Below the pieces are notes generated by a model that ran no database searches, had not been told where the DNA came from, and saw only the letters and a program-made list of their open reading frames with translations. A stretch of DNA of 62,219 nucleotides from Oligoflexia bacterium (GTDB lineage: Bacteria > Bdellovibrionota > UBA1018): positions 1-62,219 of the forward strand of contig JACMQW010000044.1 in NCBI GenBank assembly GCA_014376785.1, written 5' to 3'. Made by a program: the position numbers and the translations under genes. Below are positions 745 through 51,092 of this stretch, in pieces (position 1 is the first letter of the stretch; every line of letters begins with the position of its first letter).

Positions 745-1920
745 ATGTCTATTTCGCTCGGGCAGTTACTCCAGACCATGGTCCAAAACGGTGGATCTGA
801 CCTTCATGTCGCATCGAATTCTCCACCCATGATTCGGGTGCGGGGAGATATGGCGAAGTTAAACGTCCCTCCGCTCACTCCGGCCGAGGTCGAACAGATG
901 ATCATGGCGACGCTGACCGATGCGCAGCGTGCGGAAATCATCAAAGACAAAAATTTGGATTACTCTTTCAAAGCCTCTGGAATCGGAATTTTCCGGGTGA
1001 ATATTTTCTATCAGCGCCACGGAATGTCGTTTGTCATGCGAGTGCTGACGGAAAGTCCTCCGGAGATCGACAAGCTGAATTTGCCCGCCATCTGCAAAAC
1101 GGCGTGCTCGTATTCGAATGGACTCGTGCTCGTCACCGGCCCGACGGGTTCGGGTAAATCGACCACTTTGGCTGCGATGTTAAACTACATCAATCAAACG
1201 ACGAAGGGTCACATCCTGACGTTAGAGGATCCGATCGAATTCCAGCACGAAAGCAAAATGGGAATGGTGAATCAGCGCGCTTTGGGCGCTCACTTTCCGA
1301 CTTTCGCATCGGCCATGAAAGCTGCACTCCGGGAAGATCCGGACGTGATTCTGATCGGTGAGATGCGGGATGCAGAGACGGTTGCGCTCGCTTTGAAAGC
1401 GGCCGAAACCGGTCACCTCGTTTTCTCGACCCTCCACACGAACTCGGCGTCGAAAACGATCGACCGGATCATTAATACGTTCCCGGCCGAGGAACAGCCG
1501 CAGATCCGTACCGTTTTGTCGGAAACCCTGAAGGTCGTGATTGCTCAGCGGCTGATTCCGACTGCGGATAAAAAGCGCCGGATCGGAATGCACGATATTC
1601 TAGTGAATACTTCCGCAGTGGGTAATCTCATTCGCGAGGGAAAAACGTTCCAGCTGGTGAGCGCAATGCAGACCGGGAAAAAAGACGGAATGCAGGTATT
1701 CGAGCAAGTTCTGATGGAAGCGGTGAAGCGTGGCGAGGTGACTGGAGAAGACGCTTGGGAACACGCAGGGGATAAGGCAATGTTTGCACAGTGGGCGCCA
1801 AAACCAGAGCTACCACCTGGATACGTCCCGGGCCCTGCGACTTCTCAAGCCGCAGCCGGATCGCCATCGACCGGACAGACTTCCGCGTCCCTACCGGGGG
1901 CGCCCAAAAAAATCGCTTAG
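745..1920 (+). CDS. pilT: PilT, type IV pilus retraction ATPase
   Basis: 391 aa. PilT is the hexameric cytoplasmic ATPase that depolymerises type IV pili for twitching motility. Seen here: the N-terminal PAS-like domain (residues 1-100), Walker A GPTGSGKST (132-140), the Asp box around LTLEDPIEF (159-167), Walker B DVILIGE (about 200-206) and the His box HLVFSTLHT (224-232). About 40 Pro/Ala/Ser-rich residues extend the C-terminus beyond the usual ~345 aa. A purine-rich stretch (caggag) precedes the ATG. No other pilus gene is in the window. The stop codon overlaps that of the convergent small membrane gene. PilU is the main alternative; the Walker and His boxes fit PilT well. Confidence 0.93.
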   Translation: MSISLGQLLQTMVQNGGSDLHVASNSPPMIRVRGDMAKLNVPPLTPAEVEQMIMATLTDAQRAEIIKDKNLDYSFKASGIGIFRVNIFYQRHGMSFVMRVLTESPPEIDKLNLPAICKTACSYSNGLVLVTGPTGSGKSTTLAAMLNYINQTTKGHILTLEDPIEFQHESKMGMVNQRALGAHFPTFASAMKAALREDPDVILIGEMRDAETVALALKAAETGHLVFSTLHTNSASKTIDRIINTFPAEEQPQIRTVLSETLKVVIAQRLIPTADKKRRIGMHDILVNTSAVGNLIREGKTFQLVSAMQTGKKDGMQVFEQVLMEAVKRGEVTGEDAWEHAGDKAMFAQWAPKPELPPGYVPGPATSQAAAGSPSTGQTSASLPGAPKKIA

Positions 1921-2078
1921 TGAGCGGTTGCGGGAACCGGCACCTGATTCACCGGCAATTCGAGCGCTTTTTTCTCAGCGTGGGCTTTGTACGCAGTCAC
2001 CACAGCACCGGTGAAGCTTAAAGCAACCCCGATGACACAAACCACGACGACTGATTGGAACCGTTTTAATTCTTGCAT
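1917..2078 (-). CDS. Small single-pass membrane protein, unknown function
   Basis: 53 aa from the ATG at 2078, chosen because GGAGAA lies about 10 nt upstream; a longer in-frame ATG at 2114 lacks such a site. It has one hydrophobic helix (residues about 9-30, VVVVCVIGVALSFTGAVV) and then a short Lys/Glu and Pro/Val tail. It is convergent with pilT, their stop codons sharing three bases, and divergent from pstS. No family recognised. Its real existence rests on the good ribosome site and the transmembrane pattern. Confidence 0.5.
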   Translation of the reverse strand: MQELKRFQSVVVVCVIGVALSFTGAVVTAYKAHAEKKALELPVNQVPVPATAH

Positions 2079-2116
2079 GGTTAGCGTCTTCTCCGAAAGG
2101 TCTCGAGATTTCAAGG

Positions 2117-2140
2117 CTTTAGGAGGGCACTTTCCTAAAG
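2117..2140. promoter_or_regulatory. Perfect inverted repeat between the divergent small gene and pstS
   Basis: CTTTAGGA and TCCTAAAG (8-bp arms) flank 8 bases. The site is 39 bp upstream of the divergent small-gene start and 45 bp upstream of pstS, where an operator would sit. No canonical Pho box (paired CTGTCAT) is visible. It could also act as a hairpin in the RNA. The role in phosphate control is inference. Confidence 0.4.
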
Positions 2141-2185
2141 GTTTCCTGACATAAGTCGCGATGCGTTACTGTGTAGAGTCGGGTC

Positions 2186-3241
2186 ATGCGCTTTCTCTGC
2201 ATTTTCACCGCACTGCTTTCCATCTCGATTCTGCCGCCTCGGGCGACCCAGGCAGGGGATGCGCTGACGTTAAACGGAGCGGGCGCGACTTTTCCGTACC
2301 CGCTTTATTCGAAGTGGTTCTCTGAATATCGAAAGATCGATCCCTCGGTAGAAATCAATTACCAGTCTATCGGGTCGGGAGGTGGAATTCGCCAGCTCTT
2401 AGAAAACACGATCGATTTTGGCGCTAGTGATTCGCCCATGAAAGACGAGCAACTTGCGAAAGCGAAAACGCCGCTCTTTCATTTTCCGATGGTGATGGGT
2501 GCGGTGGTGCTGACTTACAATCTCCCCGGGGTTCACCAGCCAATTAAGTTGAGTCCGGAACTCCTCGCGGACCTTTTCTTAGGAAAAATATTTTACTGGA
2601 ACGATCCGAAAATCGTCGCTTTGAATCCGGAAATCACTCTTCCCGATGTTCCGGTCATGATCGTGCACCGGTCCGATGGAAGTGGAACCACCTCGATTTT
2701 TACGGATTATCTCGCGAAAGTGAGTCCGGAATGGAAATCGCGGGTGGGGTCGGGGACGGCGGTAAAATGGCCACTCGGGATCGGCGGAAAGGGAAACGAA
2801 GGAGTCACTGGCTTCGTAAAAAATTCGCCCGGAGCGCTGGGATACATCGAGCTTCTCTACGCCGAAAAAAATAACCTCCAAGTGGCTCATTTGAAAAACG
2901 CCGCGGGAGTGTTCGTCAAGCCCGAGGCGAAATCCATCACGGCGGCTGCGAGTGGGTTTTTAAGAGAAATGCCGAAAGACTTTCGAGTTTCGATTACGAA
3001 TGCTCCGGGGAGTGGTGCCTATCCGATTTCTGCATTCACGTATCTCCTCGTTTATCGAAATCTTGGAGATGGTAAATCCGTTGACGCGAAAACCGAAAAA
3101 TTAAAAAGATTCATCGCTTGGGCGCTCACCGAAGGCCAAAAGCTTGCGGCTTCCCTTTACTACGCTCCGTTACCGGAATCGCTGAGCGCGAAAGTCCGTA
3201 TGCAATTGAAAGAGATCGGCTCAAAGGAACTCGTAAAATGA
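2186..3241 (+). CDS. pstS: PstS, periplasmic phosphate-binding protein
   Basis: 351 aa. This is the periplasmic receptor of the high-affinity phosphate ABC transporter. A signal peptide (residues 1-23) is followed by the family opening LNGAGATFPYPLYSKW, the phosphate-contact region around GSGGGIRQ, and the HRSDGSGTT motif. The size matches the family. It is the first gene of pstSCAB-phoU, and its stop codon overlaps the pstC start (ATGA). Expression probably responds to phosphate starvation, but no PhoB site is evident and no phoB/phoR gene lies in the window. Confidence 0.95.
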   Translation: MRFLCIFTALLSISILPPRATQAGDALTLNGAGATFPYPLYSKWFSEYRKIDPSVEINYQSIGSGGGIRQLLENTIDFGASDSPMKDEQLAKAKTPLFHFPMVMGAVVLTYNLPGVHQPIKLSPELLADLFLGKIFYWNDPKIVALNPEITLPDVPVMIVHRSDGSGTTSIFTDYLAKVSPEWKSRVGSGTAVKWPLGIGGKGNEGVTGFVKNSPGALGYIELLYAEKNNLQVAHLKNAAGVFVKPEAKSITAAASGFLREMPKDFRVSITNAPGSGAYPISAFTYLLVYRNLGDGKSVDAKTEKLKRFIAWALTEGQKLAASLYYAPLPESLSAKVRMQLKEIGSKELVK

Positions 3242-4161
3242 GAAACCGCGCAGCGAATCTCGGAGACCGCCGGTTCCAACGCACGCTCATGGCGTTATCG
3301 GGATCTGTGGTGTCCGTACTGGGATTAATCGCCGTTTACCTCGTGAAGTTATCCTGGCCGGCAATTCGAGAGTTCGGCCTGCCGTTTTTTTGGAGCACAG
3401 ACTGGGACCCCGTGAAAGACCATTTCGGCGCGGGTGCGTTCATCTTCGGCACGGTCACTTCCTCATTCCTTGCACTCCTGATTGCAGTGCCGCTGAGTAT
3501 TTCGGTGGCGCTCTTTCTCACTGAGCTTGCGCCACGTAAAATCGCGGCGTTGGTCGCCTTCATGGTCGAAATGCTGGCGGCGATTCCGTCCGTTGTTTAC
3601 GGACTCTGGGGAATTTTTTTCCTGGCCCCACTCTTACGTCTTCATGTTCAGCCATTTCTAAGTCGACATTTCGGCTGGGTTTTTTTATTCCAGGGACCGC
3701 CCTACGGGATCGGAATGTTCGCGGCTGCGCTTATTCTGGCGATCATGGTGACTCCGACGATTACTGCGATTTGCCGAGAAGTTTTTCGGGCGGTTCCGGA
3801 AACGCAAAGAGAAGCGGCGCTGGGTCTCGGGGCGACGAAATGGGAAACCATTCAGCTCGCCGTCGTGAAAAGCTCGTGGTCTGGAATCTTTGGAGCCTCG
3901 ATTTTAGGTTTAGGTCGCGCTCTCGGCGAAACGATGGCGGTGACCATGCTCATCGGGAACCGTAATGAAATTTCCGCATCGCTCTTTGCGCCCGGCCAAA
4001 CCATGGCATCAGTGATCGCGAATGAATATGCCGAAGCAGAATCCTCGACTCACATTGCGGCCCTGGCTTACGTGGGCTTAGCCCTTTTTATCGTTTCTTT
4101 TGTGACGAATTTTATCGCTCGGCGAATCGTGCTTCGTTTGCAAGGAGGGGCTTCCAGGTGA
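3238..4161 (+). CDS. pstC: PstC, phosphate ABC transporter permease
   Basis: 307 aa, starting at the ATG that overlaps the pstS stop by 4 bp; the in-frame upstream extension has no support. Inner-membrane permease with about six hydrophobic helices. The EAA-loop region (REAALGLGATKWETI) contacts PstB, and the LGRALGETMAV stretch is typical of PstC. It pairs with PstA to form the transmembrane channel. It ends in a GTGA overlap with pstA, so the two are probably translationally coupled. Confidence 0.95.
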   Translation: MRNRAANLGDRRFQRTLMALSGSVVSVLGLIAVYLVKLSWPAIREFGLPFFWSTDWDPVKDHFGAGAFIFGTVTSSFLALLIAVPLSISVALFLTELAPRKIAALVAFMVEMLAAIPSVVYGLWGIFFLAPLLRLHVQPFLSRHFGWVFLFQGPPYGIGMFAAALILAIMVTPTITAICREVFRAVPETQREAALGLGATKWETIQLAVVKSSWSGIFGASILGLGRALGETMAVTMLIGNRNEISASLFAPGQTMASVIANEYAEAESSTHIAALAYVGLALFIVSFVTNFIARRIVLRLQGGASR

Positions 4162-5078
4162 AAACCGAACTCGGAAATCTTGGAAACGATGGCCTCCTTC
4201 GGCCGTTGAAGCAGGGGGATAATTTTTCGAGGCTCGATTTTCGTCGCACGGTGAAAAATCGAGTGATGCTCGGCCTTTTAGGGCTCGCGTCTTTGGTGGC
4301 GATTCTTCCGCTTCTTTTTATTCTCTACTACGTGATTCACCGAGGGATCGCCGGCCTCAGTATTCGTTTTTTCACCCAGCTTCCGAAGCCAGTTGGCGAA
4401 ACGGGCGGAGGGCTTGGAAATGCGGTTTTAGGGACGCTCATCTTAGTGGGATTAGGCTCCATCATCGGAGTGCCAGTCGGAGTGGCTTCCGGAGTTTACC
4501 TCGCTGAGTACCGGCGTTCGAAATATGCAAACGTTCTGCGTTCCGCGGTAGAGCTCTTAGCGGGAGTGCCGTCGATTATTCTCGGAATTTTCGCTTACGC
4601 GCTCATCGTAGTACCGATGAAAGGTTTTTCGGCACTAGCCGGTAGTATCGCACTCGCGGTGATCCTCATTCCCACTGTGGCAAAAACCACGGAAGAAGTA
4701 TTGAAACTGGTTCCGGATCACATTCGGGAAGCGGGCCTTGCGCTGGGGTTGCCACGCTGGAAAGTGATCCTGCGAATCGTGGTTTACGGATCCCGCTCCG
4801 GAATCCTGACCGGCGTGATGCTCGGGGTTGCGCGGATTAGCGGGGAATCTGCGCCTCTGTTGTTTACTGCTTTGAACTCGCAGTACTGGCCTCACGGACT
4901 TTTAAACCCAATCTCAAGCCTTCCCGTCCAAATTTACACCTACGCGATTTCTCCATTCGATGAATGGACCCAGCTTGCTTGGACGGGATCCATGGTGCTG
5001 GTCTTATTTGTACTCGTAGCGAATCTATCCATGCGTGCGCTCATCTATCAGAAGGGCTCCGGAGGAAAAACGAAATGA
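4158..5078 (+). CDS. pstA: PstA, phosphate ABC transporter permease
   Basis: 306 aa with a GTG start inside the end of pstC. Second permease subunit. It has six predicted membrane segments and an EAA loop ([15 protein letters not shown]), followed by the family signature around [13 protein letters not shown]. The N-terminal ~30 residues before the first helix are polar. The stop codon overlaps the pstB ATG by 4 bp. The genes work as one inner-membrane complex with PstB on the cytoplasmic face. Confidence 0.95.
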
Positions 5079-5845
5079 AGTTAACCCTAGAACCGATTCT
5101 CTCGGCGAAAAAAGTGAATGCGTATTTCGGTGCCTTTCAAGCCATAAAAGACGTGAGCCTCGACGTCGCTCCCCATTCAGTCACCGCACTCATCGGCCCA
5201 TCGGGATGTGGAAAGTCGACGTTTCTTCGGACGCTGAACCGATTGCATGAAGAAATTCCTGGGGCACGCTTCGAGGGCGAGGTTCTATTAGAAGGCGAGG
5301 ACATCTACGCCCGTGGCATGGACCCCGTGCAAGTGCGCCGGAAAATCGGGATGGTTTTTCAAAAACCAAATCCGTTTCCTTCGCTCTCGATTTTCGAAAA
5401 TGTCGTCGTCGGATTAACCCTAGCGGGGGTTCGAAACCGGCATCTTTTGGAAGAAACGGCCGAGAGTGCGCTCAAAAATGCGGCACTCTGGGACGAAGTG
5501 AAAGATAAATTAAAGGCGCCGGGGACCTCGCTCTCGGGGGGGCAGCAGCAGAGACTCTGCATTGCTCGCGCGCTTGCGGTAAAACCTCCGGTGATTTTGA
5601 TGGATGAACCAACCTCTGCGCTCGATCCAATCTCGACTGCGCGAATCGAAGAACTACTTGGAGAAATGAAGAAAGAAGTCACGGTCATCATCGTGACTCA
5701 TAATATGCAGCAGGCGGCTCGGTGCTCAGATCACACCGCGTTTTTTCTTCTGGGCGAATTGGTTGAGCATGCTCGCTCGCCGACCCTTTTTTCAAATCCT
5801 CAGGACCGTCGCACAGAGCAGTACATCACGGGCCGTTTCGGTTGA
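5075..5845 (+). CDS. pstB: PstB, phosphate ABC transporter ATPase
   Basis: 256 aa from the ATG overlapping the pstA stop. ATP-hydrolysing subunit. Walker A is GPSGCGKST (41-49), the Q-loop lies in [10 protein letters not shown] (typical of PstB), the signature is LSGGQQQR, Walker B is [12 protein letters not shown] and the switch His is in VTHNMQQA. The length equals the usual ~257 aa. It is followed after 51 bp by phoU. Confidence 0.96.
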
Positions 5846-5896
5846 TTTTTCCGCGAGACAGTTCATGATGGGGGTTGGAAAGGTGAGGGATCACAC

Positions 5897-6556
5897 ATGG
5901 ATAGAACAATCGATTCGGGCCTTGCGAGACTAAAAACCAAACTCCTATCCATGGGCGGTTACGTCGAAAAGGCGATCGAGGAAGCCACCGGAGGTTTGGT
6001 CGAAGGACGAATGGAGCGTTTCGCCCGCGTTCATGAAATAGAAATTACGATTAATCAGCTGCATAAAGAAGTCGATGAAGATTGTCTCCATTTGCTCGCT
6101 ACCCAGTCTCCGATGGCAAAGGACCTGCGAACCATCATCGCGGTTATTAAAATTAATACCGACCTTGAGCGGATGGGGGATCAAGCGGTGAACATCGCTT
6201 ATAACGCTGCAGAGTACATGCGCGAACCACCGATTAAACCGTTAGTCGATATTCCACGGATGGCGGAACTCGCGCGCAGCATGACTCGCGATTCACTCGA
6301 TGCGTTTGTCCAAGTGAATTCGGAACTTGCCGGGGATGTGGTGAGCCGCGACGACGAAGTCGATCAGCTGAAGAATCAAATTTTTCGGGAACTCCTGACC
6401 TACATGATTTCCGATCCGAAACGGATCGAGCAGGCATTGAACCTGATTCTGATTGCGCGGAACCTCGAGCGCGTAGGGGATCACGCGACAAACATCGCGG
6501 AAGATGTGATTTTCATCGCGACGGGAAAAGACATTCGGCATGGTGGAGCGAATTAG
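5897..6556 (+). CDS. phoU: PhoU, phosphate signalling regulator
   Basis: 219 aa. PhoU is a cytoplasmic protein of two three-helix bundles that restrains phosphate uptake through PstSCAB and, in most bacteria, relays phosphate sufficiency to PhoR. Both repeats are visible, each with an ERMGD/ERVGDHATNIAE metal-binding motif (residues about 92-103 and 192-206). A GGTGAGGGA ribosome site lies upstream. It closes the pst operon. The cognate PhoR/PhoB must be encoded elsewhere. Confidence 0.95.
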   Translation: MDRTIDSGLARLKTKLLSMGGYVEKAIEEATGGLVEGRMERFARVHEIEITINQLHKEVDEDCLHLLATQSPMAKDLRTIIAVIKINTDLERMGDQAVNIAYNAAEYMREPPIKPLVDIPRMAELARSMTRDSLDAFVQVNSELAGDVVSRDDEVDQLKNQIFRELLTYMISDPKRIEQALNLILIARNLERVGDHATNIAEDVIFIATGKDIRHGGAN

Positions 6557-6801
6557 GTTTTTCGCTTCGCTTTATTCACTGGAGTGTTGCCGAACGGCAG
6601 CGTTTGAGTTGGCGAGTATTAAGTGAGTAATCCTTTCGAATCTCGCGTGCTGATAGTTCGAGCCAATTTTAAGACAAAGGATTTTAAGTTCGTAGAGGGA
6701 CTGCGATAATTAACATCCTACCTAACTTAATTTCATTGTGCATTAGCTGCAGTTAAGCAGATATTTTAAGCTATTTAAACCGTAACGTCCTGGAGTCACT
6801 T

Positions 6802-7344
6802 TTGAAAATTCTGGTTTCACTTTTTATTTTTTTTATGAACGGAATCGCCTTTGCCGCCACGGGATGGGACGGTTACGAAACGAAATACATCTCCGGCCGT
6901 GTAGCCAGAAATTATTTCAATAAAGCCCTTAAAAATGTGGATCGTCACCAATATACATTTTTCAAAGAGATGACTAAAAAAGAAAAGGCGTATTGGCGGC
7001 GGATGCACGAACAGCCAATACGTCCAATTCCCTCTAAGAGTTGTCCTGCGGTCCGTTACGTCAAAAATGACGTGCAGCCTATTGCGGCTGATCGGAAGCA
7101 TGCCGCGACGAATGGCAGAGTTTCCGGAAGCCTTGAAGTATCGAAAATTCCATTCGTATTCGTTACTTGCTTGGAAACTGCATTCACAAGCTCCGCACCG
7201 AAATACGAGTGTTTGCTGGCGTTTCAATTTGGAGGCAAATCCGATAAGTTCGTTTATGATGTAAATGCGGCTTATCAGGAACTTAATGCGAACGAATCTG
7301 TCATTCAGCTCAGATCATGCATTCCCGATGAGAGAGATTATTAA
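6802..7344 (+). CDS. Secreted protein of unknown function
   Basis: 180 aa from a TTG start, supported by GGAG 6 nt upstream (6792-6795) and by the signal peptide it opens (residues 1-18, ending IAFA). The mature part is basic and has four cysteines (SCPAV, VTCLE, YECLL, RSCIP), which suggests two disulfides. No known domain seen. It stands alone: 245 bp upstream and 240 bp downstream hold no gene. Periplasmic or extracellular location is inferred. Confidence 0.65.
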   Translation: MKILVSLFIFFMNGIAFAATGWDGYETKYISGRVARNYFNKALKNVDRHQYTFFKEMTKKEKAYWRRMHEQPIRPIPSKSCPAVRYVKNDVQPIAADRKHAATNGRVSGSLEVSKIPFVFVTCLETAFTSSAPKYECLLAFQFGGKSDKFVYDVNAAYQELNANESVIQLRSCIPDERDY

Positions 7345-7584
7345 TCCTCTTTCGTTCAATTCGAAAACTAAACGAATTTGGTGCTGTTCAGCAAGCAGGG
7401 CAGGTGTAGTGCGGGCGAAAAACTTACAAAGATTACGATCTTCTCGCTCACAATCGCCGAAAATTTGACGAGTCAGCCTCGCAGCTGATTCTTCGCTTCT
7501 TTGGCATCACCCCCGCCCCGTTTCTCACCGCCAAGTCATACTCGATCTTCCCTTAGCCGCCCGCTCGGTTTATCCTAGAGTGAT
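7345..7584. other. Gene-free stretch before mgtC
   Basis: No convincing reading frame, RNA gene or terminator with a T-run was found here. It presumably carries the promoter of the mgtC-DUF155 pair. No recognisable Mg-sensing leader was identified by eye. Confidence 0.4.
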
Positions 7585-8292
7585 ATGAACTCGAACTTTC
7601 CTTATTCTCCCCAAGACTGGGGAGTGACGCATCTCTTCCTCTACTTCGGCACGAAATGCCTGCTCGCCTTTTTCTGCGGCGGCATCGTCGGACTGGAGCG
7701 GGAGTTAAAGAGCAAGCCCGCCGGTCTGAAAACGAATATTCTGATTTGTCTCGGTTCCGCGATTTTCACGGCCACTTCGGTTCTGATTTCTAATGCGAAT
7801 GGTCCGGGTGGCGCTCCCGGAGACCCATCCCGAGTGGCGGCCCAGATCGTGTCGGGGATCGGTTTCCTCGGCGGGGGAGTGATCATTCAGGCACGAGGCA
7901 CGATCGTCGGACTGACCACCGCGGCCACCATCTGGGTGGTCTCCGCTTTAGGTGTGATGATCGGCCTGGGTTACCATAACGTCGCAGTCTTTATCGCTGC
8001 GATCGTGATCCTGATCTTAGTCAGTGTTTCTTGGTTCGAGGACCGAGTTCTGGGGCGCTCCATCGCTTTCATCACCGAAGTGTTAGTCGATGATCCGGAG
8101 GGCGAATCGCGGCATGCGGTGAATATGCTGTTGGTGCAGCACGACCTCGTGCTCGAGAGTTTCGATATTACGAGCCGGGGTGAATTCCAAAACATGATGA
8201 CCCTTCGCTATTCTGGCCACCGATCCGACCAAAAGAAATTCAACCTCGCACTCTGGGGAACCCCCGGCGTGAAGGAGATTCGCCAACAGTGA
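7585..8292 (+). CDS. MgtC/SapB family membrane protein
   Basis: 235 aa. The MgtC family comprises inner-membrane proteins linked to growth in low Mg2+ and, in pathogens, to survival inside host cells and F-ATPase inhibition. Seen: a hydrophobic N-terminal domain with the conserved GGIVGLERELKSKPAGLKTN motif (residues about 32-51), RVAAQIVSGIGFLGGGVI (about 83-100), GLTTAATIWVVSALGV, and a soluble C-terminal ACT-like region of about 65 residues. The stop overlaps the next start (GTGA), so the two genes are probably co-translated. Confidence 0.88.
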   Translation: MNSNFPYSPQDWGVTHLFLYFGTKCLLAFFCGGIVGLERELKSKPAGLKTNILICLGSAIFTATSVLISNANGPGGAPGDPSRVAAQIVSGIGFLGGGVIIQARGTIVGLTTAATIWVVSALGVMIGLGYHNVAVFIAAIVILILVSVSWFEDRVLGRSIAFITEVLVDDPEGESRHAVNMLLVQHDLVLESFDITSRGEFQNMMTLRYSGHRSDQKKFNLALWGTPGVKEIRQQ

Positions 8293-9125
8293 ACGACGTT
8301 ACCACCAAAGATCCTCAGAGCGGAATGAAGCCGGATTACCAGGTGTTTAGGCTGTCTGCGACCCACGTCGCCGAGCGTTTAAAGCTGAAAGAGCTCCGTG
8401 AAAAAGTCATTCACCCGGTGAAATCGTTCACAAATTATGAGCTGGTGGTTGAGTTCGCGGAAAATACTTACGCATTCATTTATAACTACGGATCTGTCGT
8501 TTTCTATAACGTCCCCGATGTGATGCAGGAGAAATACCTCGCAATGATTCGGGAAACGAAAGAAGGCGCAAAGATCGGAGACACCACCGACGTTTTCTTA
8601 GTCGAGTACCGTCACGACCTCGAACCCACCGTAAACCAAGTTTTTCACGACCGCATCGCGAGCGGAAAAATCACTTTTCAGAAAATCAAAATCATCTGCA
8701 TGCTCGTTGCCGAGAGTGCTGCCCTCGATTACTACGATCTACTGATCGAAAATCTATTGGAGCGAGCGACCGTGTTTACGAAGCGACTCGAGCAGCAAGG
8801 GAGGTTCGTCGCCGGGAAAGAAGATCTGCTGAAGTTCGTTGGGATGTGCCTTTCGACGAAGCAGGAAATCATCTCAAACCTCTACATCGTCGATAGCCCG
8901 GAAGAGACTTGGGACTCTCCGGAGCTGGATAAAATTTATCACGAGTTAAAAAGCATGCTCGAGATTGATGTTCGGTACCGGGCGGTCGAATACAAATCGA
9001 AAATCATCCAAGAGAGCATCGAAGTGATCACCGAACTCGTGAAGACGAAAAGAGAGGTGATGCTCGAACTCACCGTCATTTTGCTCATCGCGTTTGAAAT
9101 TCTCTTCCAGATTGTGCGGCACTGA
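8289..9125 (+). CDS. RMD1/DUF155 (YagE) family protein
   Basis: 278 aa with a GTG start overlapping the mgtC stop by 4 bp. DUF155 proteins occur from bacteria to mitochondria (yeast Rmd1, Mrx10, human RMND1). Their bacterial role is poorly known. Visible features: the N-terminal alpha/beta part with FAENTYAFIYNYGSVVFYNV, a central LLIENLLERA helix region, a charged coiled-coil-like segment (about 220-255), and one C-terminal transmembrane helix with a short tail. This matches the family's tail-anchored layout. The pairing with mgtC suggests a shared membrane or ion role, which is inference. Confidence 0.82.
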   Translation: MNDVTTKDPQSGMKPDYQVFRLSATHVAERLKLKELREKVIHPVKSFTNYELVVEFAENTYAFIYNYGSVVFYNVPDVMQEKYLAMIRETKEGAKIGDTTDVFLVEYRHDLEPTVNQVFHDRIASGKITFQKIKIICMLVAESAALDYYDLLIENLLERATVFTKRLEQQGRFVAGKEDLLKFVGMCLSTKQEIISNLYIVDSPEETWDSPELDKIYHELKSMLEIDVRYRAVEYKSKIIQESIEVITELVKTKREVMLELTVILLIAFEILFQIVRH

Positions 9126-9220
9126 GACTGGTGACTGGGTGTGTAAGGTTTGTAAAGGCTTGAAAGTATTTGCAAAATTGAACGGGCGTCTTTAGCCTAT
9201 TAGGACAGGGAGAAGACTCG

Positions 9221-9532
9221 ATGACCAAGGCCGATCTCATCAATATCGTTGCGGAAAAAGCGCACCTTCAGCATCGCCAAGCTGAAATCGTGGTGAATAT
9301 GGTTTTTGACATGATGTCGGACGCGCTCAAGCGTGACGATCGCATCGAGATTCGTGGATTCGGATCGTTTGTGAATCGGAGTTACGGCTCCTACCAAGGT
9401 CGGAATCCCAAAACGGGCCAAGTCGTGCAAGTCCCACCGAAGCGAGTCCCATTCTTTAAGGTCGGTAAAGAGCTGAAGGAAATGGTCGACTACCCTGACG
9501 GCCGCGGTGAAGTTGCTCCAGAGAAAAAATAG
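9221..9532 (+). CDS. HU/IHF family DNA-bending protein
   Basis: 103 aa. Nucleoid protein of the bacterial histone-like family; dimers bend DNA in the minor groove. Seen: MTKADLINIVAEKA at the N-terminus, the GFGSF turn, and the beta-arm GRNPKTGQVVQVPPKRVPFFKVGKEL. The arm and the tail after it look closer to IHF-beta than to HU, with an acidic-then-lysine extension of ~10 residues. GGGAG lies about 9 nt before the ATG. It is monocistronic. Whether it is HU or an IHF subunit cannot be settled by eye. Confidence 0.92.
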   Translation: MTKADLINIVAEKAHLQHRQAEIVVNMVFDMMSDALKRDDRIEIRGFGSFVNRSYGSYQGRNPKTGQVVQVPPKRVPFFKVGKELKEMVDYPDGRGEVAPEKK

Positions 9533-9559
9533 TCGATCTCTCTTCGGTTTCGATTCGAA

Positions 9560-10384
9560 TCACAGTCCCGCTCGGTAGAAATGCACTCCGATCACGGTAG
9601 CCGCGACCAGAATGCGGTAAACCGCATACCTCAGCAGTGGAGTTTTCTGAATCGACGACAAGAAGACGTGAATGAAAAAGGTGGCTGACAGAAAGGCAAC
9701 TGCTAGGGACACCCAGTAATAAAGGGGGGGGAATTCCGAAACGGAGAGCGCTGCGCCTGGTCCTTTCAAATGGTACCATGCGGAAACTCCGAGAATTGGT
9801 GTCGCGAAATAGAGAATCACTTTAGCCGCTCCTTCGCGCTTATAACCGCGAGCCCCAGCAACCGTGAACGCTCCGAGCGTTCTCCCGAGCTCGGGAATGA
9901 CGAGAGAGACGCAGCCGATCCCCACTAAAACCGCGTCAGGCAAATTCCAGTCGTAAATCGCCTTCGTTTTTTTCGCGTAATAATCGAAAAAGGCCATTGG
10001 CAATCCAGACAATCCAAAAACTGCCGCAAAGAGGAGCGCGTTTTCGCTCGGAAGAATGGGCGACTGGCGAAATAGAAAGAAAGCGGCAATGGGCGCCACC
10101 ACGCCAATTAAAATGAAGATCGGCATCTTCTCATCCATGGCTCTCGGTTTCTTTCGGTAAACCACGACCTGAATAAACGAGCTGATGTGCGAGAGGATGT
10201 CATGCCGGAGCGTGAAAATCAGACTGAGAAAAACTCCGAATTCCACCGCGCCTTGGAGGCGGGGATGGCTAACGTTCCAGCCGAAAAAGTATTCGAGAAG
10301 ACTTTGGTGCGCTCCCGGGGCAATGGGGTAAATTTCCGAGAAGACGCCGACGATCGAGGCAATGATAGCCTGAAATAAAGTCAT
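9560..10384 (-). CDS. UppP/BacA-like undecaprenyl-diphosphatase homologue with altered active-site motifs
   Basis: 274 aa, about seven to eight membrane helices. UppP recycles undecaprenyl diphosphate for cell-wall synthesis. The fold-level match is clear: an N-terminal EIYPIAPGAH stretch equals the family EFLPVSSTGH, and the second motif sits at LVIPELGRTLGA. The key residues are changed. The first acid of the ExxxE pair is Gly13 (Glu17 and His26 are kept), and the PGTSRSG motif has become PELGRTLG, keeping only the arginine (Arg168). It could be a paralogue with a new role, or inactive. Monocistronic, convergent with the HU gene. Confidence 0.75.
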   Translation of the reverse strand: MTLFQAIIASIVGVFSEIYPIAPGAHQSLLEYFFGWNVSHPRLQGAVEFGVFLSLIFTLRHDILSHISSFIQVVVYRKKPRAMDEKMPIFILIGVVAPIAAFFLFRQSPILPSENALLFAAVFGLSGLPMAFFDYYAKKTKAIYDWNLPDAVLVGIGCVSLVIPELGRTLGAFTVAGARGYKREGAAKVILYFATPILGVSAWYHLKGPGAALSVSEFPPLYYWVSLAVAFLSATFFIHVFLSSIQKTPLLRYAVYRILVAATVIGVHFYRAGL

Positions 10385-43580: not shown

Positions 43581-43618
43581 AAAGAGAGGACAGAGTGATT
43601 TCGCTCTGTTCTCTCTTT
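43581..43618. terminator. Bidirectional hairpin terminator between GST and the secreted-protein operon
   Basis: A 15-bp stem (43581-43595 with 43604-43618, one G-T wobble) encloses an 8-nt loop, with two more inner pairs possible. It sits between the convergent ends of the GST gene (43560) and the four-gene operon (43640). The arms are AAAGAGAGGACAGAG and its complement. A short T tract closes the stem, and AT-rich flanks follow on both sides. Confidence 0.75.
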
Positions 43619-43639: not shown

Positions 43640-45574
43640 TTAGAATCCGACTTTTCTCTGAACCGAATCGTACTTATCCGACACGATTTGGAAGAGGTTA
43701 TTGCCCCTTGGGTTCTTTGAGTGCCAGATATCGTCGCTCGACGCGACGTCTCGGAACGCCATCTCATTTCCTGCCGCCACGTGATCTTTTTCTTCAGCGC
43801 CACCAAAGAGACTTTTCAGATTCAGATCGCCGCCTGAAGAATCGCCTTTCGAAGCCATCGAGCGTGCAGCGCCACCGCCGCTGTAGCCGGCGCCTGCGTC
43901 TTTCGAAAAGTTTGCGAAAGCGGATGCCATGACTCCGGAGATTTCTCCCTCTGCTCCTCGCGCGCCGCCAGAGGCCGCGACGCTAGAGACGAGACCGGCC
44001 ATTCCGGCGGCCCCGCCTGCAGCGGCTTCCGATACTTTACTATGCGGAATCTGGCTTGCTACGCGGTCCACTTGCGACGCGAGAGGAGATCCCGATGGCA
44101 GGAGGAAGGATTCCGGAGAGCCTCCGACCACGGCCGCACTGGTGTTCGATGCCGGTGCGTTCGATGTCGTGAAGTTCGACCCCGTTGCGGTGAAGAGGTT
44201 AGAGTTCGAGCCGGTCGCGCCGGAGAGACCGAAAGCGCTGGTCGTTCCGTTTCCGGTGAAGAGGGATTGGAGCAAGTCTTTTGCTTTACCCTTCGTATTT
44301 TCGGCTGAGTAGATCGAAACTCCACGCATCGCAGTCAACCCGGTGAAAATGATTGCGGCTTGTTTCGCTAGGTTTGCGCGACCTACGTAGAATTCATAAG
44401 TGTTCGTTTGAGCGACATCGAGTTTTGCTTTGGTCGCATCTGCTTTCGCTCCCGTATCCTTGATGAGTGCTTCCTGTTCGCAGCCCCCTTCCGTGCAGGA
44501 TTCAAGTTGTTTTTTCTGATAATCGAGTGAGCTTTTTTCGGTTTGCGCATTTTTTGCGATTAACGCATTTTGTTTCGCATTCTGTAGCGTGCCCTGACTG
44601 GATAGACCTTTGCAAAAATCAGGAAATTTTTCAGCCTGATAATAGCAAACGCCAATTCGCATCGCGGTGAGACTTCCGCCCGCACTTAAGATGGTTTCCA
44701 TAATTTTCGGGATGTTTTTTACTAATCCCTGTTTAGCAGCGACATTTCCGTCGCCATCGATCGTTTGTCCGCCCGAGGAGTGTTTTCCAGACATCAACTG
44801 AATGCTGGTTTGGACGATTTCGCCCATTCCGGCCGCGAAGGCAGCTCCGCCACATGCTCCAGAGTTAAAGATGTTGCCGGGACTCATGGCGTTTCCGGGC
44901 GGAGTGAAAACGAATGTCAGAGGAATAATGGGTTCGTGATTGGCGATTTGTTTCGCTCTTTTCTGATTGAATTCGAGTTCCTTCGTTTTGTATTCAGCAC
45001 TGACTTTCGCCATAGAAAGCGCTTCTGCCCAGCAGATTCCTGCAGCAGCCACATCAAGTGCGGCGATGACGATCACACCTTTTTCAGCGCTTTGAGCGCT
45101 CTCGTAAGCCTCGCAGTACTGAAGGGACTGCGTGTTTTTCGATGCTTGCTGGAGGGAGCAGTAGACCTGAGCTTCTTGGCTATTCACTGTCCTGCCGGAT
45201 GCGCAGATCGAGCCGATCATTTCACTTTTCGCGCCGTCCGTTTGATTTGCGACGGCCGCTTGCATGGTGGTGAAGCAATCGGCCGGATTTGTGAGTCGCT
45301 CCCGCCTTGTCTTAGTCTGGCAAGCGGTGGTCATGATTTTAACATCATCTCCCTTTTTATCTTTAAAATTTCCGACGGACGCATTTTTTAACGCCGTACA
45401 AATCGCGCCCACGTCCGGCAGCGTTTTCGCTGCATCTCCGCTGCTAATACTACTCGCAGATGAATCCAGCACGCCGTCCGCAAATGCGGGGGTGATCGGC
45501 GAGAGCGCGATTCCGAGCGTGAGTGTGAGAGAAAGGACTTGGGAGATGACGTTCTTCTTCATGATCTGCGACAT
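43640..45574 (-). CDS. Large secreted protein 4 of the operon (paralogue group), unknown family
   Basis: 644 aa. Signal peptide (residues 1-33, ending TPAFA). N-terminal cysteine-rich region with a block YCEAYESAQ...AAAGICWAE in which the two cysteines are exactly 26 residues apart, shared with the next two proteins. The middle is long and Ala/Ser/Gly/Asn-rich with a coiled-coil-like Lys/Gln stretch. The C-terminus carries DLNLKSL, then DDIWHS and NNLFQIVSDKY, the operon's shared end module. No enzyme motif found. Export is clear; the role, possibly in an envelope or extracellular structure, is inferred. It is last in the operon, 11 bp after the gene before it. Confidence 0.8.
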   Translation of the reverse strand: MSQIMKKNVISQVLSLTLTLGIALSPITPAFADGVLDSSASSISSGDAAKTLPDVGAICTALKNASVGNFKDKKGDDVKIMTTACQTKTRRERLTNPADCFTTMQAAVANQTDGAKSEMIGSICASGRTVNSQEAQVYCSLQQASKNTQSLQYCEAYESAQSAEKGVIVIAALDVAAAGICWAEALSMAKVSAEYKTKELEFNQKRAKQIANHEPIIPLTFVFTPPGNAMSPGNIFNSGACGGAAFAAGMGEIVQTSIQLMSGKHSSGGQTIDGDGNVAAKQGLVKNIPKIMETILSAGGSLTAMRIGVCYYQAEKFPDFCKGLSSQGTLQNAKQNALIAKNAQTEKSSLDYQKKQLESCTEGGCEQEALIKDTGAKADATKAKLDVAQTNTYEFYVGRANLAKQAAIIFTGLTAMRGVSIYSAENTKGKAKDLLQSLFTGNGTTSAFGLSGATGSNSNLFTATGSNFTTSNAPASNTSAAVVGGSPESFLLPSGSPLASQVDRVASQIPHSKVSEAAAGGAAGMAGLVSSVAASGGARGAEGEISGVMASAFANFSKDAGAGYSGGGAARSMASKGDSSGGDLNLKSLFGGAEEKDHVAAGNEMAFRDVASSDDIWHSKNPRGNNLFQIVSDKYDSVQRKVGF

Positions 45575-45585
45575 ACGTGCCTCGA

Positions 45586-46953
45586 TTATTTCTTCGCTTT
45601 AGGATCGGAGTAACCATTGAAAATACGATTCACCCGGCCCTCAGGCTCGAGTTCTGAATACTGACTTTTACGCTCTTTAATGCGACCGGAAACGATGTCG
45701 AAGATCGTTCCATTATAGCTTGCATGGAATACGTCTCCGTCTTGCGAGGCCGCAAGGGACGCTGTGCTCGCAGGCGCACGAAAAATTTCTAAGACCGAGT
45801 TCGATTCGCCGGGAGTTGCGCCGCCACTTCCGCCGAAACCCATTTCGTCGATTCCGCTTCCACCCGCGACGGTGGCAGAGCCGCTGCCCGACTTATAGGA
45901 ATCACCGGTAATCGAAGCGAGGAGGGGGGAGGTTTCGCCTCGGTTAATGCGACCTTCGGCTTCCTTCACCATGTCGGTCATATTCTCAGGCATTCCTGCG
46001 GCGGATAAAATGTTCGCTGCGCTTTCGCCAGAATCGACTTTTTTTCCAATCTCATTCATATCAAGTTTCCCCGCATCGGTCGCCAGGGTGAGATCACTTT
46101 TTACATTCTTTAAGTATTTATCGGTTCCGATCGTGGCGGCTAGGTGATCCACGGCGTCGGGGGTCGGAGGCGTGAAAGCACTCGCCGTCGCCGCAAACAT
46201 TCCCGCGCTGGAACTTCCTTTAATTGGAGGTGTAGGGAGTGCGGCCAGACAAGACTGAACGTTTCCTTCCACCATGGACGTGAGGGACTGCGCAGAATCA
46301 CAAGCGCTTTGGCCACTTTTCTTCAGATCTTTAATGGATTTGATTTTTGCAGCTCCGTTGATGCCGAAAAGAACGGCATTTATACAAGACGGGCTCATTG
46401 CCTTTTGCATCATGGTTTTCGTTACTCCGGTGGTAACCTTCCTGATCATGCTGATTGAGCCCGCACCAGAAATAATGGAACCACCTAGCGAGAGAATATT
46501 TCCATCACCTTTCGCGATATCTTTAATCGCCATACCGACTTCGAGGGCCGTATTCGCAAGCCCCGCGAATCCGCAAACGCGGTCCCAGGCTACGGGAGTA
46601 CCTGCCGGAGTCATTCCCATTACGCACGCTGTGGCGCAGACCGCAGCAGAGGCTAAGTTTAAAGTCGCGGTCACTTTCTGAAGCCCTTGCCCCTTGTTGG
46701 AATCGCTGTAAGCAGAGCAGTAAGCTCCCGACTGGCTCCCCGTGACGGCCTTCACCACACAGTTTACGCAGGTGTCGCTTTTCTTACAATTTGCGTCGTT
46801 AATGAGGTTTTTTGCATTCGCTGCGGTCACGCCGCAGAGGCTGTCGCAAGAATTCGCGGCCATTGCGCTCGGAAGCGGGCCAGTGAGGAGTGAAAAACTG
46901 CAGAAGACGGAGAAGACTAAAAGCGCCTTGCGATTCATTTGTGTTCTCATCAT
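45586..46953 (-). CDS. Large secreted protein 3 of the operon (paralogue group), unknown family
   Basis: 455 aa. The start ATG overlaps the stop of the preceding gene by 4 bp; a later Met (MNRKALL) could open the signal peptide, which ends AMAA. The mature N-terminus is very cysteine-rich (CDSLCG, NCKKSDTCVNC) and has AYCSAYSDS...ASAAVCATAC with the same 26-residue spacing between YC and C. Ala/Gly/Ser-rich middle. The C-terminus has GDVFHASYNGTIFDIVSGRI, related to the end of protein 4. No known domain. It is coupled to its neighbours in one transcript. Confidence 0.8.
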   Translation of the reverse strand: MMRTQMNRKALLVFSVFCSFSLLTGPLPSAMAANSCDSLCGVTAANAKNLINDANCKKSDTCVNCVVKAVTGSQSGAYCSAYSDSNKGQGLQKVTATLNLASAAVCATACVMGMTPAGTPVAWDRVCGFAGLANTALEVGMAIKDIAKGDGNILSLGGSIISGAGSISMIRKVTTGVTKTMMQKAMSPSCINAVLFGINGAAKIKSIKDLKKSGQSACDSAQSLTSMVEGNVQSCLAALPTPPIKGSSSAGMFAATASAFTPPTPDAVDHLAATIGTDKYLKNVKSDLTLATDAGKLDMNEIGKKVDSGESAANILSAAGMPENMTDMVKEAEGRINRGETSPLLASITGDSYKSGSGSATVAGGSGIDEMGFGGSGGATPGESNSVLEIFRAPASTASLAASQDGDVFHASYNGTIFDIVSGRIKERKSQYSELEPEGRVNRIFNGYSDPKAKK

Positions 46954-48254
46954 TTCACCCCGATTTTAAAATTGAGATCCCGAGTGACGATCGCACCATA
47001 GCGCAAGCGGACGCGGTCAAAAAGGCTCACCGTGCGGTCTTCCGGATTCAGAAAAAGATTCGCAGAAGCAAGCCCCCGCGCAGCGGGATTAGCGGCATTC
47101 GCAGTGCCTGCGTTTTCGGCAGCGTCGCCCGCGGCGACTCCGCTCAGCGCTTGGGCCATCGCCCCATTCAAATCAAAATCATCGCCTCCATAAGACGGAG
47201 CGGAATGTCCGACGCTCGCAGCGCGGTAACCTTGCGACGACTCTAGCTTTTCACCGACGTTCAGACCGGCTAATTTTTCCATCGCGCGCGCCGTCTCTCC
47301 GAGTTCGCTCTGTGCAGCTCCCGGCAGTGACGAAATCGATGCCGAATCGAAGAGGGATTTCGAAGGCGATTCAAATTCTCCAAAAAAGGCGTCCGCCGAT
47401 TTCCCCGTCGCTTTTTGGAGGTCTTTCAGAAATTCTTCTGAGCGAACATAGGATGGAAGCGTAGGATCGCTAGCCGTCGCACATCGAATCGCTCCGAGCG
47501 CAGACTTCACAGACGATTCCGTGCAAGCTGTCGATAGTCCGCCCGCCGTCGCGGCCGAAATGATGGAGCCCGCTCCATTATTAGCCGGCGTGGGCGCAGT
47601 TTCCGTTCGAAAGCCCAGACCACCGCTGGCGGTGGTAGGACTCATGTCATCTGATTTCTTTTTCAGATCGCCCAAACTTTTTTCATTCGCCTGCGACTGA
47701 GAATATTTCTCGTATGCTTTTAGCGTGCTTTTTCCGGCCACTGCGCACGCATCGCCGTTAAATTTCGTTGCCGGCGCGGCCGCCTGAGTCCCTGCTTGTG
47801 CGGCATCGGGCGCAGATTTTTCTGCATTTTTCGTGAGTAAATTTTGTCCCGCGGCAGTTCCCGCTCCCATGACGGTGTCTGCGAATTTTTTCACGAGGAT
47901 TCCTTCAGCGGCGCTCCCGATGAGGGATGCTCCGGTGCAAAGGGGGCCCGTGACCGCTTTTCCGCAAGCCGCCGTGCAAGTCGCCGCGACTCCGGTCCAG
48001 ACGGCCGAGGTTGCTTGGTTGGTCGTGACTCCCTGGCTGTAGTCTTTTGCAGCGGTGCAGTACTTCGCGCGGAATGCCGCGTCTTTAGAGTTTTTGCAAA
48101 TCGATGAAACTTTTTGGTCGGTCCCGATGGCGTGAGCGGAGATTGCAGTGAGCAGGCCTAAGGAGAAAAGGGCTGCCCGAGCAAGCGAAGACGAGAGGCG
48201 ACTGGCCCCATGGTCTTTTTGCAATGATGTCGTGGTTACACGACGAAACCCCAT
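46950..48254 (-). CDS. Large secreted protein 2 of the operon (paralogue group), unknown family
   Basis: 434 aa. Signal peptide after a basic start (ends SAHA at about residue 43). The N-terminal region has KYCTAAKDY...GVAATCTAAC with YC and C 26 residues apart, the mark of the group. The Ala-rich body has few charged residues. Near the end comes FDLNGAMAQALSG (close to FDLNG of protein 1), then SLFDRVRLRYGAI. It overlaps gene 3 by 4 bp. Unknown function; probably exported and assembled with its neighbours. Confidence 0.8.
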   Translation of the reverse strand: MGFRRVTTTSLQKDHGASRLSSSLARAALFSLGLLTAISAHAIGTDQKVSSICKNSKDAAFRAKYCTAAKDYSQGVTTNQATSAVWTGVAATCTAACGKAVTGPLCTGASLIGSAAEGILVKKFADTVMGAGTAAGQNLLTKNAEKSAPDAAQAGTQAAAPATKFNGDACAVAGKSTLKAYEKYSQSQANEKSLGDLKKKSDDMSPTTASGGLGFRTETAPTPANNGAGSIISAATAGGLSTACTESSVKSALGAIRCATASDPTLPSYVRSEEFLKDLQKATGKSADAFFGEFESPSKSLFDSASISSLPGAAQSELGETARAMEKLAGLNVGEKLESSQGYRAASVGHSAPSYGGDDFDLNGAMAQALSGVAAGDAAENAGTANAANPAARGLASANLFLNPEDRTVSLFDRVRLRYGAIVTRDLNFKIGVK

Positions 48255-48292
48255 CTTTTCTACCCCCGTTTAGTGACTGAACTCTCCTGGAT

Positions 48293-50437
48293 CTAGATCC
48301 CGACATGCCCCCGGCGATTTTTTTCACTCATCGTTTCGTGAATGCGCTGAAAGAGATCGGCATTCTTATCTAGGTAAGAACCATTTTCATCCATGGCGGC
48401 AGGAGCCCGCGCAGCATGATTTGCGAAATCTAGAATTCCATTTTTATTCGGAACGTCTTCTTCGGATTTAGGAAGAAACTGGGCAAGCAAGCCATTCAAG
48501 TCGATGCTTTCTTCTTTCGCCGCTTTGCCTCCGCCTTTTCCGCCGGGTGCTCCGCCACCGACTTCGTAGCGTTCTTTCGTTCCGAATTCAGAAGCGTATC
48601 CCGCTTTCGTTTCTTCACCTGCAGGTGCTCCACCTCCGGCACCCGCCCCGCCTGCAGCGGCGCCTCCCGCACTTCCACCGCCGCCGCCACTGGGTCCGCC
48701 GGCTGCCGTTTTAAATTCGCCCGGTTTGGGAGCGTCCACTCCGCCCGTTTCTCCGCCGATATCGTTTCCATTACCCAGTGTGTTTGCATCCGGATTTAAT
48801 CCGGTCGGATCGGATGTGCTCTGGCTGCTTTCGCCTGAGGTCGCGGCAGACCGAGTGTTATCGTTCCCATTTCCAGCGGCAACCGGCCCGCTGGAATCCC
48901 AAAGGACGGGAGCGCCCGCGAGTTTTGCTTCGATCGAAGCGTATTGGCGCGCAAGTTTTTCGGCACCTTTCTGAGTCGCTTTTGCATTTTTAAGTTCCAT
49001 CGCGCTTTTTACCGCGCCCATCGCAGTCGTGTAAGTCGCCGCGGCCGCAGCTTTCTGCGTGTCCTGTTGTTCTTTGATGGCTTCCGCGTAGCGAGCTTGG
49101 ACGCGGTCGCTGGAAGCATCGAAACCATTTTCATCTGGTCGAAAAGACGCGATTTCCGAGGCATTTTTTCGGTGTTGACTCGTTTTCATCGCGAGCTTCG
49201 CGGTGGCGACGAGATTTAAACCCGTCACGGCAGCTTGGTAGGTCGCGGCGCTTTTAGCTGCTTTTGCGATTCCTTTTTGAATGCTCGATTGGGTTCCGTT
49301 CGCTGCACTCGCTGCGATCTGGCCACCGATCGTGTTCATGACAGTCGAACCCGCGGTTTGTAAAACTTGGGAACCGACGTTCGCGACCTTGATGATCGTG
49401 TTGGTGCCGCTGCACCGATAGTCCCGGCCGCCGCCTTTTTGGATCGCGATCAATTCGGACTGGGTGCAAGCATCGCCGTAAGCCATCTTTGCATCTGAAG
49501 CGCTTAAACCTGATTTATCCGGTCCAGAAGAAACGGGACGTCCGGTGGCAACATCAAGGACGGTTTTTTTACCGTCGACCATTTTCGTAACCGTGCTGAC
49601 GTTCAATTCCTTTGCTTGCTTCCGAGCCGTTTCCCCGTCTTCACTCAGCGTGAATAGTTTTCTTTCTCCGTCAGAGTCCGTGGCGACTGCAGTGAATGAA
49701 GTCCCGTTTTTCGGATCTGATTTTATTTCAGACACACTCGCGGTGCTTCCATCGGCAAAGGTGTGCGTCGTGCCGGTAGTCGAACTGCGTGTAGGCGTGG
49801 TTGCGGACGCAGCAGGGTCTGCAGGCGAAGCGGTGCCATTTTCAGAAGTCGTACCGACCGAAGCTCCAAGGGTGCCAGTTGCGGAATTCGTCGAGCTGCC
49901 CGATTTTACTTTGCTATCCGCGACCGCAGTATTTGTGGTTGCTGGCTCTGTGCTTGATTTGGTTTTTGCCTTCGCGCTTGCGGAAGAAGTCGCGCCTGCA
50001 GGCTTGTTCGATTTCTGAGGAGAGTTAGATTTAGTCGCCGCCCCCGCAGCTTTCGACGCAGTCGATGAACCTTTGGTGAAACAATTACAGCCCGTAGGCA
50101 TTTTACTGTAGTCGGCGATGAATGTGATTTGTAAATCGAACTTCTCAAAGCAGGACTTCGTCTTCACTTTGCTTGGGACGACTTTGAAGTTTGCGCAATA
50201 GCCATCCGAGGTGACGCCATAACCCGAATAAGTCGAGTGCCCGAGAATCCAAGAATCTTTATTCCAGATTTCCTGTTTACCTTGGCACATGTTTACTTCG
50301 GGATAAAAAGGTTGGCAGCTTTTTGCGGTCGTTTCGGATGCCGAAACTTGAGGAACCGACGCACCCAAGAGCGCGGAGACCATTCCGAGCGCGCTCAGTG
50401 TGAAAAGTTGAAGTGCCTGTCGATCGCGTTTACTCAC
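48293..50437 (-). CDS. Large secreted protein 1 of the operon, unknown family
   Basis: 714 aa, GTG start with AAGGGG about 8 nt upstream. Signal peptide ending VSASE. A small domain with seven or eight cysteines (residues about 40-125: CQPFYPE, MCQGK, GYCANF, SCFEK, GCNCF) is followed by a long Ser/Thr/Ala/Lys linker, an Ala-rich helical part and a Gly-rich stretch, then the shared C-terminal motifs IDLNGLLAQFL and ADLFQRIHETM. It lacks the YC-x26-C block of the other three. It leads the operon and is the likely scaffold; function unknown. Confidence 0.8.
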   Translation of the reverse strand: MSKRDRQALQLFTLSALGMVSALLGASVPQVSASETTAKSCQPFYPEVNMCQGKQEIWNKDSWILGHSTYSGYGVTSDGYCANFKVVPSKVKTKSCFEKFDLQITFIADYSKMPTGCNCFTKGSSTASKAAGAATKSNSPQKSNKPAGATSSASAKAKTKSSTEPATTNTAVADSKVKSGSSTNSATGTLGASVGTTSENGTASPADPAASATTPTRSSTTGTTHTFADGSTASVSEIKSDPKNGTSFTAVATDSDGERKLFTLSEDGETARKQAKELNVSTVTKMVDGKKTVLDVATGRPVSSGPDKSGLSASDAKMAYGDACTQSELIAIQKGGGRDYRCSGTNTIIKVANVGSQVLQTAGSTVMNTIGGQIAASAANGTQSSIQKGIAKAAKSAATYQAAVTGLNLVATAKLAMKTSQHRKNASEIASFRPDENGFDASSDRVQARYAEAIKEQQDTQKAAAAATYTTAMGAVKSAMELKNAKATQKGAEKLARQYASIEAKLAGAPVLWDSSGPVAAGNGNDNTRSAATSGESSQSTSDPTGLNPDANTLGNGNDIGGETGGVDAPKPGEFKTAAGGPSGGGGGSAGGAAAGGAGAGGGAPAGEETKAGYASEFGTKERYEVGGGAPGGKGGGKAAKEESIDLNGLLAQFLPKSEEDVPNKNGILDFANHAARAPAAMDENGSYLDKNADLFQRIHETMSEKNRRGHVGI

Positions 50438-50666
50438 GGGTAACCCCTTAGAATCGAAGACCGGAAATCCCGGTATTCAAAGGAACTCATCGTTAGAAAG
50501 AGAGAATTTCTTGACCCCACTCGAATATTTTCACTTGTTTTTATAGTGGAGTAAAGAATTCAACTATTAAAAACCTCCCCCAATCGGCTGACTTTTAGAC
50601 AACTAAGGCGGGTCGCGCACGACCCACCCGAAAAATTTCTGACAAAAGGCTTGGCGGGAGACGCGA
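50438..50666. promoter_or_regulatory. Divergent control region of the secreted operon and the GcvH-like gene
   Basis: It contains a hairpin-forming repeat GGGTCG-cgca-CGACCC (50610-50625) and a short ACCGG-AAATC-CCGGT palindrome (50460-50474) in the leader of the secreted operon. A TATAAA-like box (minus strand, around 50540) lies upstream, but no well-spaced -35 hexamer was found. No riboswitch was recognised. Promoters for both flanking genes must lie here. Confidence 0.35.
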
Positions 50667-51092
50667 ATGTGCCCGACAATAATGGGTATGAGCGAAACGA
50701 CGGTTCCCAAGTCAGGTGAGTTTGATGATGGAAGATTCTGGTTTTCCCGACGGGGGAACGTCCTGACGATCGGCCTCACAAACCATGGCATTGATGCCCT
50801 CGGTGATCTCGAAGGAATGGACCTTCCAGAAGAAGGGGACCACTTCGATGCGGGGGACGAAATTCTGACGATCGAAGGCAACCTTGCGAATGCCGACATC
50901 ACCCTCCCGTCCCGGGGCCTCGTTACGGCGGTTAACCCGGCTACGGCTGACCTTTCAAGCATTTCTGATGACCCGCTCGAAGAGGGATGGCTTCTGAAGT
51001 TTCAGGTCGAAGACCTAGAATCTTTGGTTGAAATTGCGGAGCCGGCCGATTCCGATGATGACGCGGATGAGGATGAGTCCGAATCTGATTAG
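50667..51092 (+). CDS. GcvH-like lipoyl-domain protein lacking the lipoyl lysine
   Basis: 141 aa. The sequence follows the glycine-cleavage H protein fold: a GRFWFSRRGNVLTIGLTNH strand region, GDEILTIEGNLANADITLPSRGLVTAVN, then DPLEEGWLLKFQ. In true H protein the turn reads ESVKA with the lipoylated Lys; here it is EGNLA, the Lys position being Leu73. No gcvT or gcvP is nearby. GGGAG lies 6 nt before the ATG at 50667. It therefore cannot carry lipoate in the known way. The acidic C-terminal tail (Asp/Glu/Ser) is also unusual. Role unknown. Confidence 0.72.
   Translation: MCPTIMGMSETTVPKSGEFDDGRFWFSRRGNVLTIGLTNHGIDALGDLEGMDLPEEGDHFDAGDEILTIEGNLANADITLPSRGLVTAVNPATADLSSISDDPLEEGWLLKFQVEDLESLVEIAEPADSDDDADEDESESD

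Follow-up and report, generated by a model that had tools for sequence, protein, structure and literature searches.

Invasion of other bacteria is what the phylum Bdellovibrionota is known for, and its family Bacteriovoracaceae includes predators. The operon analyzed here belongs to a member of this phylum, an Oligoflexia bacterium; by the window we mean the whole stretch of 62,219 nucleotides that was studied (contig JACMQW010000044.1). In the PEP-CTERM, GlyGly-CTERM, MYXO-CTERM, and type IX CTD systems, exported proteins consist of a variable body followed by a short conserved C-terminal element, and the window proteins resemble them in having a short shared C-terminal element behind a variable body. 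However, the window tails have neither a membrane helix with a basic cluster nor an Ig-like domain and match no NCBIfam model, and whereas PEP-, GlyGly-, and MYXO-CTERM tags sit on many unrelated proteins per genome, the window tail is carried by the four operon genes only. The tripartite alpha-pore-forming toxins (Ahl, Smh, Nhe, Hbl) are encoded by operons of paralogous exported helical proteins, like the window operon; yet the window proteins gave no Pfam match to them, a fold search with a low-confidence model of a relative gave no significant one, and the window proteins differ in their Cys-bearing bodies, long linkers, and conserved tail.

Within the phylum, Bdellovibrio bacteriovorus has two four-gene operons of hypothetical proteins, Bd2209-Bd2212 and Bd2723-Bd2726, for which complexes around the largest protein have been predicted (PMC12034629). 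The gene number, the phylum, and the hypothetical status of the proteins are shared with the window operon. However, those proteins are 384-414, 325-328, 153-162, and 901-995 aa long, part of them are annotated as pilus-assembly or type II secretion components, and no common C-terminal tail has been reported for them (PMC12034629). They are the nearest four-gene operons found in the literature, but a link to them was set aside on sizes and annotation, that is, by description. The MAT trimeric adhesin fibres of Bdellovibrio are likewise exported and partly annotated as hypothetical (PMC12034629), but their layout of fibre and adhesive tip was not recognised in the window operon, and they too are set apart by description.

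Operon layout and protein architecture

Four adjacent minus-strand genes, p714-p434-p455-p644, form an operon with intergenic gaps of 38, -4, and 11 bp, and the open reading frames and gaps agree with the sequence-only reading from which we started. Its features are as follows.

48293..50437, minus strand: gene 1 (p714), 714 aa, GTG start; from the ORF, orthologues, and distant relatives
46950..48254, minus strand: gene 2 (p434), 434 aa, 8 Cys; from the ORF and relatives
45586..46953, minus strand: gene 3 (p455), 455 aa, paralogue of gene 2; from the ORF, HMMs, and tree
43640..45574, minus strand: gene 4 (p644), 644 aa, paralogue of gene 3; from the ORF, HMMs, and tree
43581..43618, minus strand: terminator-like hairpin closing the operon; fold -21 kcal/mol, z = -4.45
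50438..50666, minus strand: divergent intergenic region, presumed operon promoter; from the divergent layout

Orthologues share 37-42% identity with the window genes within the same genus and 19-24% in another genus; because they are conserved in other genera, the genes are real. The claim of a strong closing hairpin held for the fold, although only a weak T-run follows. That the operon has its own promoter region was proposed as well, and the divergent layout is its one basis; no sigma-70-like site or consensus was found between 50438 and 50666. On the far side of this region, a small GcvH-like protein gene (50667-51092, plus strand) runs divergently from the operon.

In all four N-termini, K/R residues at the start lead into a hydrophobic segment; by direct reading and a hydrophobicity scan, the signal peptides claimed earlier are thus signal-peptide-like starts. 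None of the four proteins has a Cys after a lipobox, and a class III signal with the GFxxxE-type N-terminus of type IV pilins and pseudopilins was absent on direct reading, the N-termini being ordinary and signal-peptide-like. Most cysteines are found in the N-terminal half, and a Gly/Ala/Ser-rich stretch precedes the tail, much as had been described: in the 110 aa ahead of the tail, G/A/S/P/Q/N/T/D/E make up 69-76% of residues. In p714, a Cys-bearing N-terminus is followed by a Gly/Ala-rich C-terminal half, a short helix DLNGLLAQFLPK, and then the tail ADLFQRIHETMSEK. Past the signal region, the Cys number is even in 60 of 74 proteins of the class (p = 6e-8 if the proteins were independent, an assumption that does not hold for relatives), and these mostly even counts fit disulfide-bonded exported proteins.

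The earlier statement that the proteins belong to no known family was upheld. Pfam, NCBIfam, and PADLOC gave zero matches for the four proteins and PHROGs none that was meaningful; in the PDB, neither the 644 aa sequence nor the p434, p455/p644, and p714 group profiles found a meaningful match. When 71 relatives were scanned singly against Pfam, a single spurious low-complexity match was returned. Genome contigs scanned with the 644 aa protein gave no match, nor did viral contigs scanned with a p434 relative, and a full-text literature search, mostly outside subscription journals, located no description of the family. We delimit the family by a signal-peptide-like start, a C-terminal tail, and a neighbouring paralogue or p714-type partner, all of which the window genes have. 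By these searches, the protein family and its layout are undescribed.

Paralogous bodies and the C-terminal tail

HMMs built from residues 31-230 of p434 detect the p455 and p644 types and vice versa, and in the window genome the p434 profile matched gene 3 at E 2e-14. Judged by these profile matches, p434, p455, and p644 are paralogues with a common Cys-bearing helical body, and the three subunits arose by duplication. For the p714 body, HMM comparison found no homology to the other three bodies, and the tail is its sole common part with them. The positions of the gene 2 body and of the four tails are given below.

47745..48098, minus strand: residues 53-170 of gene 2, helical body with Cys, homologue of the gene 3 and gene 4 bodies
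48311..48421, minus strand: tail segment of gene 1, 37 aa, ADLFQRIHETMSEK
46980..47090, minus strand: tail segment of gene 2, 37 aa, EDRTVSLFDRVRLRY
45661..45771, minus strand: tail segment of gene 3, 37 aa, with an extension beyond, DVFHASYNGTIFDIVSGRI
43652..43762, minus strand: tail segment of gene 4, 37 aa, DDIWHSKNPRGNNLFQIVSDKY

The tail common to the four proteins is an aromatic, amphipathic helix, L/I-F-x-x-V/I-x-x-R/K-Y, that begins 14-69 residues before the C-terminal end, after the linker, in which small and polar residues abound. Each gene position has its own consensus: LDxNxNIFxRIHxTYQxK in p714, EDRxISLFxRVSxRY in p434, and DIWHxxxxxSIFxIVSxR in p455/p644. When the whole genome was searched with the tail profile, only the four operon genes matched (E 8e-10 to 2e-7), the next best hit standing at 0.24; as the four window tails were built into the profile, their own scores are partly circular, whereas the lack of other matches is not. 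The tail is similarly restricted to the operon in most genomes of the class that were tested. Tail HMMs from one gene type also pick up some members of other types, above the level of a control with five residue-shuffled copies of all proteins (at most 2 matches at E <= 0.1). These two results substantiate the related ends noted from the letters.

Compared with the same-genus orthologue, the tails of genes 1, 3, and 4 show identities of 0.86, 0.61, and 0.79, against 0.31-0.36 for the rest; in gene 2, the tail (0.46) is not clearly more conserved than the protein elsewhere (0.40). Two 436 aa proteins (L140, L150) gave a tail-like match near the N-terminus, which we judged to be chance, a beta-strand of an outer-membrane-like protein. 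Bodies and tails are also found apart. At L183, two long internal-repeat proteins with few Cys (4704-8516 and 8747-10255, minus strand) carry a p455-type tail, DIWHQDTDLNLFQIxSE, and the usual Cys-rich body is absent from them. At L145, a 256 aa protein (2712-3482, plus strand) has a p455-type body and no tail; a patatin-like gene lies next to it, with a 4HBT-type thioesterase gene further on.

A short element near the C-terminal end, after a flexible linker in all members, could also be an export or sorting signal, by which a dedicated unlinked machine would move four separate substrates to the surface or outside. That bodies and tails are separable modules, as at L145 and L183, agrees with such a role. 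However, the restriction of the tail to four genes of one operon, in the window genome and similarly in most class genomes tested, speaks against a general signal, as does the fact that the tail differs by gene position. Transport genes do not recur beside the operon in the window's class, and the tails, read directly, show no terminal membrane helix followed by basic residues such as known C-terminal sorting tags have. We regard a sorting function as unlikely.

Distribution in the class and in Bacteriovoracaceae

Profile searches were confined to one phylum, the Bdellovibrionota, and most of the loci are from draft genomes in which ORFs were called by a simple method; in some of them a contig end interrupts the operon. 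All four genes, identically ordered, were found in a genome of the same genus (G037) and in one of another genus (G046), where the fourth gene runs off the contig. Across the class, p714 profile matches occur in 28 of 58 genomes, and p434 matches, with an improved profile, in 40 of 58. Wherever a locus has both types, p434 follows p714 directly on the same strand (30/30 loci), mostly at a spacing of -23 to +60 bp. This p714-p434 pair is the minimal unit in the class; it is followed by zero, one, or two p455-type genes, and the full four-gene order recurs in several genera. The conserved gene order that had been named as support was found.

When p455-type proteins were placed in a tree, two clades (supports 0.91 and 0.93) took up most of the genes at positions 3 and 4, those of L075, L081, and L091 including exceptions; the four-gene layout is therefore probably old, and the operon is probably ancestral in the window's class. 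Its location near miaB in 10 class loci and near a GcvH-like gene in 6 fits vertical inheritance. An S8 protease and a histidine kinase are neighbours of the operon in a few genomes only. A correlation with flagella was tried and dropped as uninformative, FlhA being present in 55 of 58 class genomes.

More distant members were found in Bacteriovoracaceae (family f9, with genus g73 and, in it, one Bacteriovorax stolpii), where a p714-like gene is present in about 116 of 129 genomes. A cluster recurs in this family that comprises a C92 amidase, a tail-bearing "CPTGQ" gene, a VanY D,D-carboxypeptidase, a 4HBT thioesterase, and the p714-like gene; among 28 loci (L166 and 27 others, two of them duplicates), 25 have the thioesterase, 18 the CPTGQ gene, 16 VanY, and 15 C92. 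The order within the cluster is largely conserved. Other Bacteriovoracaceae loci have one solo gene, in several cases beside a DCC-type thiol-disulfide oxidoreductase. At L126, L127, L131, and L137 the solo tail-bearing gene adjoins such a DCC1-like gene, several of these loci also having a family 2 glycosyltransferase. Weak members occur in families f18 and f22. At L135 (family f22), overlapping genes for 365 and 420 aa proteins (498-1595 and 1592-2854, plus strand) have the related tails NIFEYANYRF and NIFEYATYRY and are possibly an independent pair.

The relatives in Bacteriovoracaceae are partly solo and rearranged. Since some relatives are solo, a four-part complex is not obligatory.

In Bacteriovoracaceae, the synteny of family members with a VanY D,D-carboxypeptidase and a C92 papain-like amidase raises another explanation, namely that the proteins are exported cofactors or scaffolds that bind and position peptidoglycan hydrolases or carboxypeptidases and form no structure of their own. 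An L,D-transpeptidase adjoins the operon in G037, the only such case in the class. However, the window's class does not keep these three neighbours, and no cell-wall enzyme consistently adjoins the operon there, and a neighbourhood by itself is no proof of function. Such a scaffolding role seems to us quite improbable. A link of the operon proteins to cell-wall remodelling, as suggested by gene neighbours in this one related family, may still be part of their function.

A proposed envelope assembly

From alignments of window and related-locus sequences, AlphaFold2 gave poor models, with a pLDDT of 32.5 for window p434 with paralogues and 43.4 for a Bacteriovoracaceae relative; in these models the body is mostly helical, the linker disordered, and the tail a helix standing by itself. 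A PDB fold search with the low-confidence model of the relative returned insignificant matches (E > 1), tripartite toxins among many others. Paralogous exported helical proteins in one operon, helices of borderline hydrophobicity in proteins of the p434 and p455 types (hydrophobicity scan), and a phylum that includes predators might be taken to indicate a multi-component pore-forming or membrane-active set, in which hydrophobic Cys-bearing helices would insert into a membrane, perhaps that of the prey. But the fold search of a poor model was insignificant and no family matches; a locus kept near miaB and near-universal in one family looks like a housekeeping structure rather than a weapon, and the long linker and exclusive tail would be left unexplained. 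Such a function would be very improbable.

For the reading that we put forward, in which the products of the four genes are not unrelated secreted proteins but subunits, expressed and exported together, of one periplasmic or surface assembly of the cell envelope, docked via their tails, we see about an even chance. The idea of a co-exported multi-protein assembly, already proposed from the letters, fits the conserved order and the shared operon-exclusive tail, but not as an obligatory four-part complex. Each subunit would begin with a helical body stabilised by disulfides, continue in a long, flexible linker rich in Gly, Ala, and Ser, and have an amphipathic helix towards the C-terminus; this tail helix would dock it onto a shared partner or onto the other subunits. 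For this docking, p714 would be the best candidate hub. The tail is kept in a separate version at each position, which would suit an assembly whose sites are equivalent yet distinct.

A broader and more tentative possibility, which we think doubtful as it stands, is a lineage-wide envelope machine of the Bdellovibrionota, with duplicated subunits, position-specific docking helices, and a common hub at the cell wall. Its subunit number would vary by lineage, and in Bacteriovoracaceae it would be closely linked to a D,D-carboxypeptidase and an amidase. The tail-bearing family is near-universal in Bacteriovoracaceae and common in another class of the phylum as well, yet it matches no curated family or solved structure. 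If the proteins do form one assembly, this would be an unknown envelope structure in a phylum that invades other bacteria.
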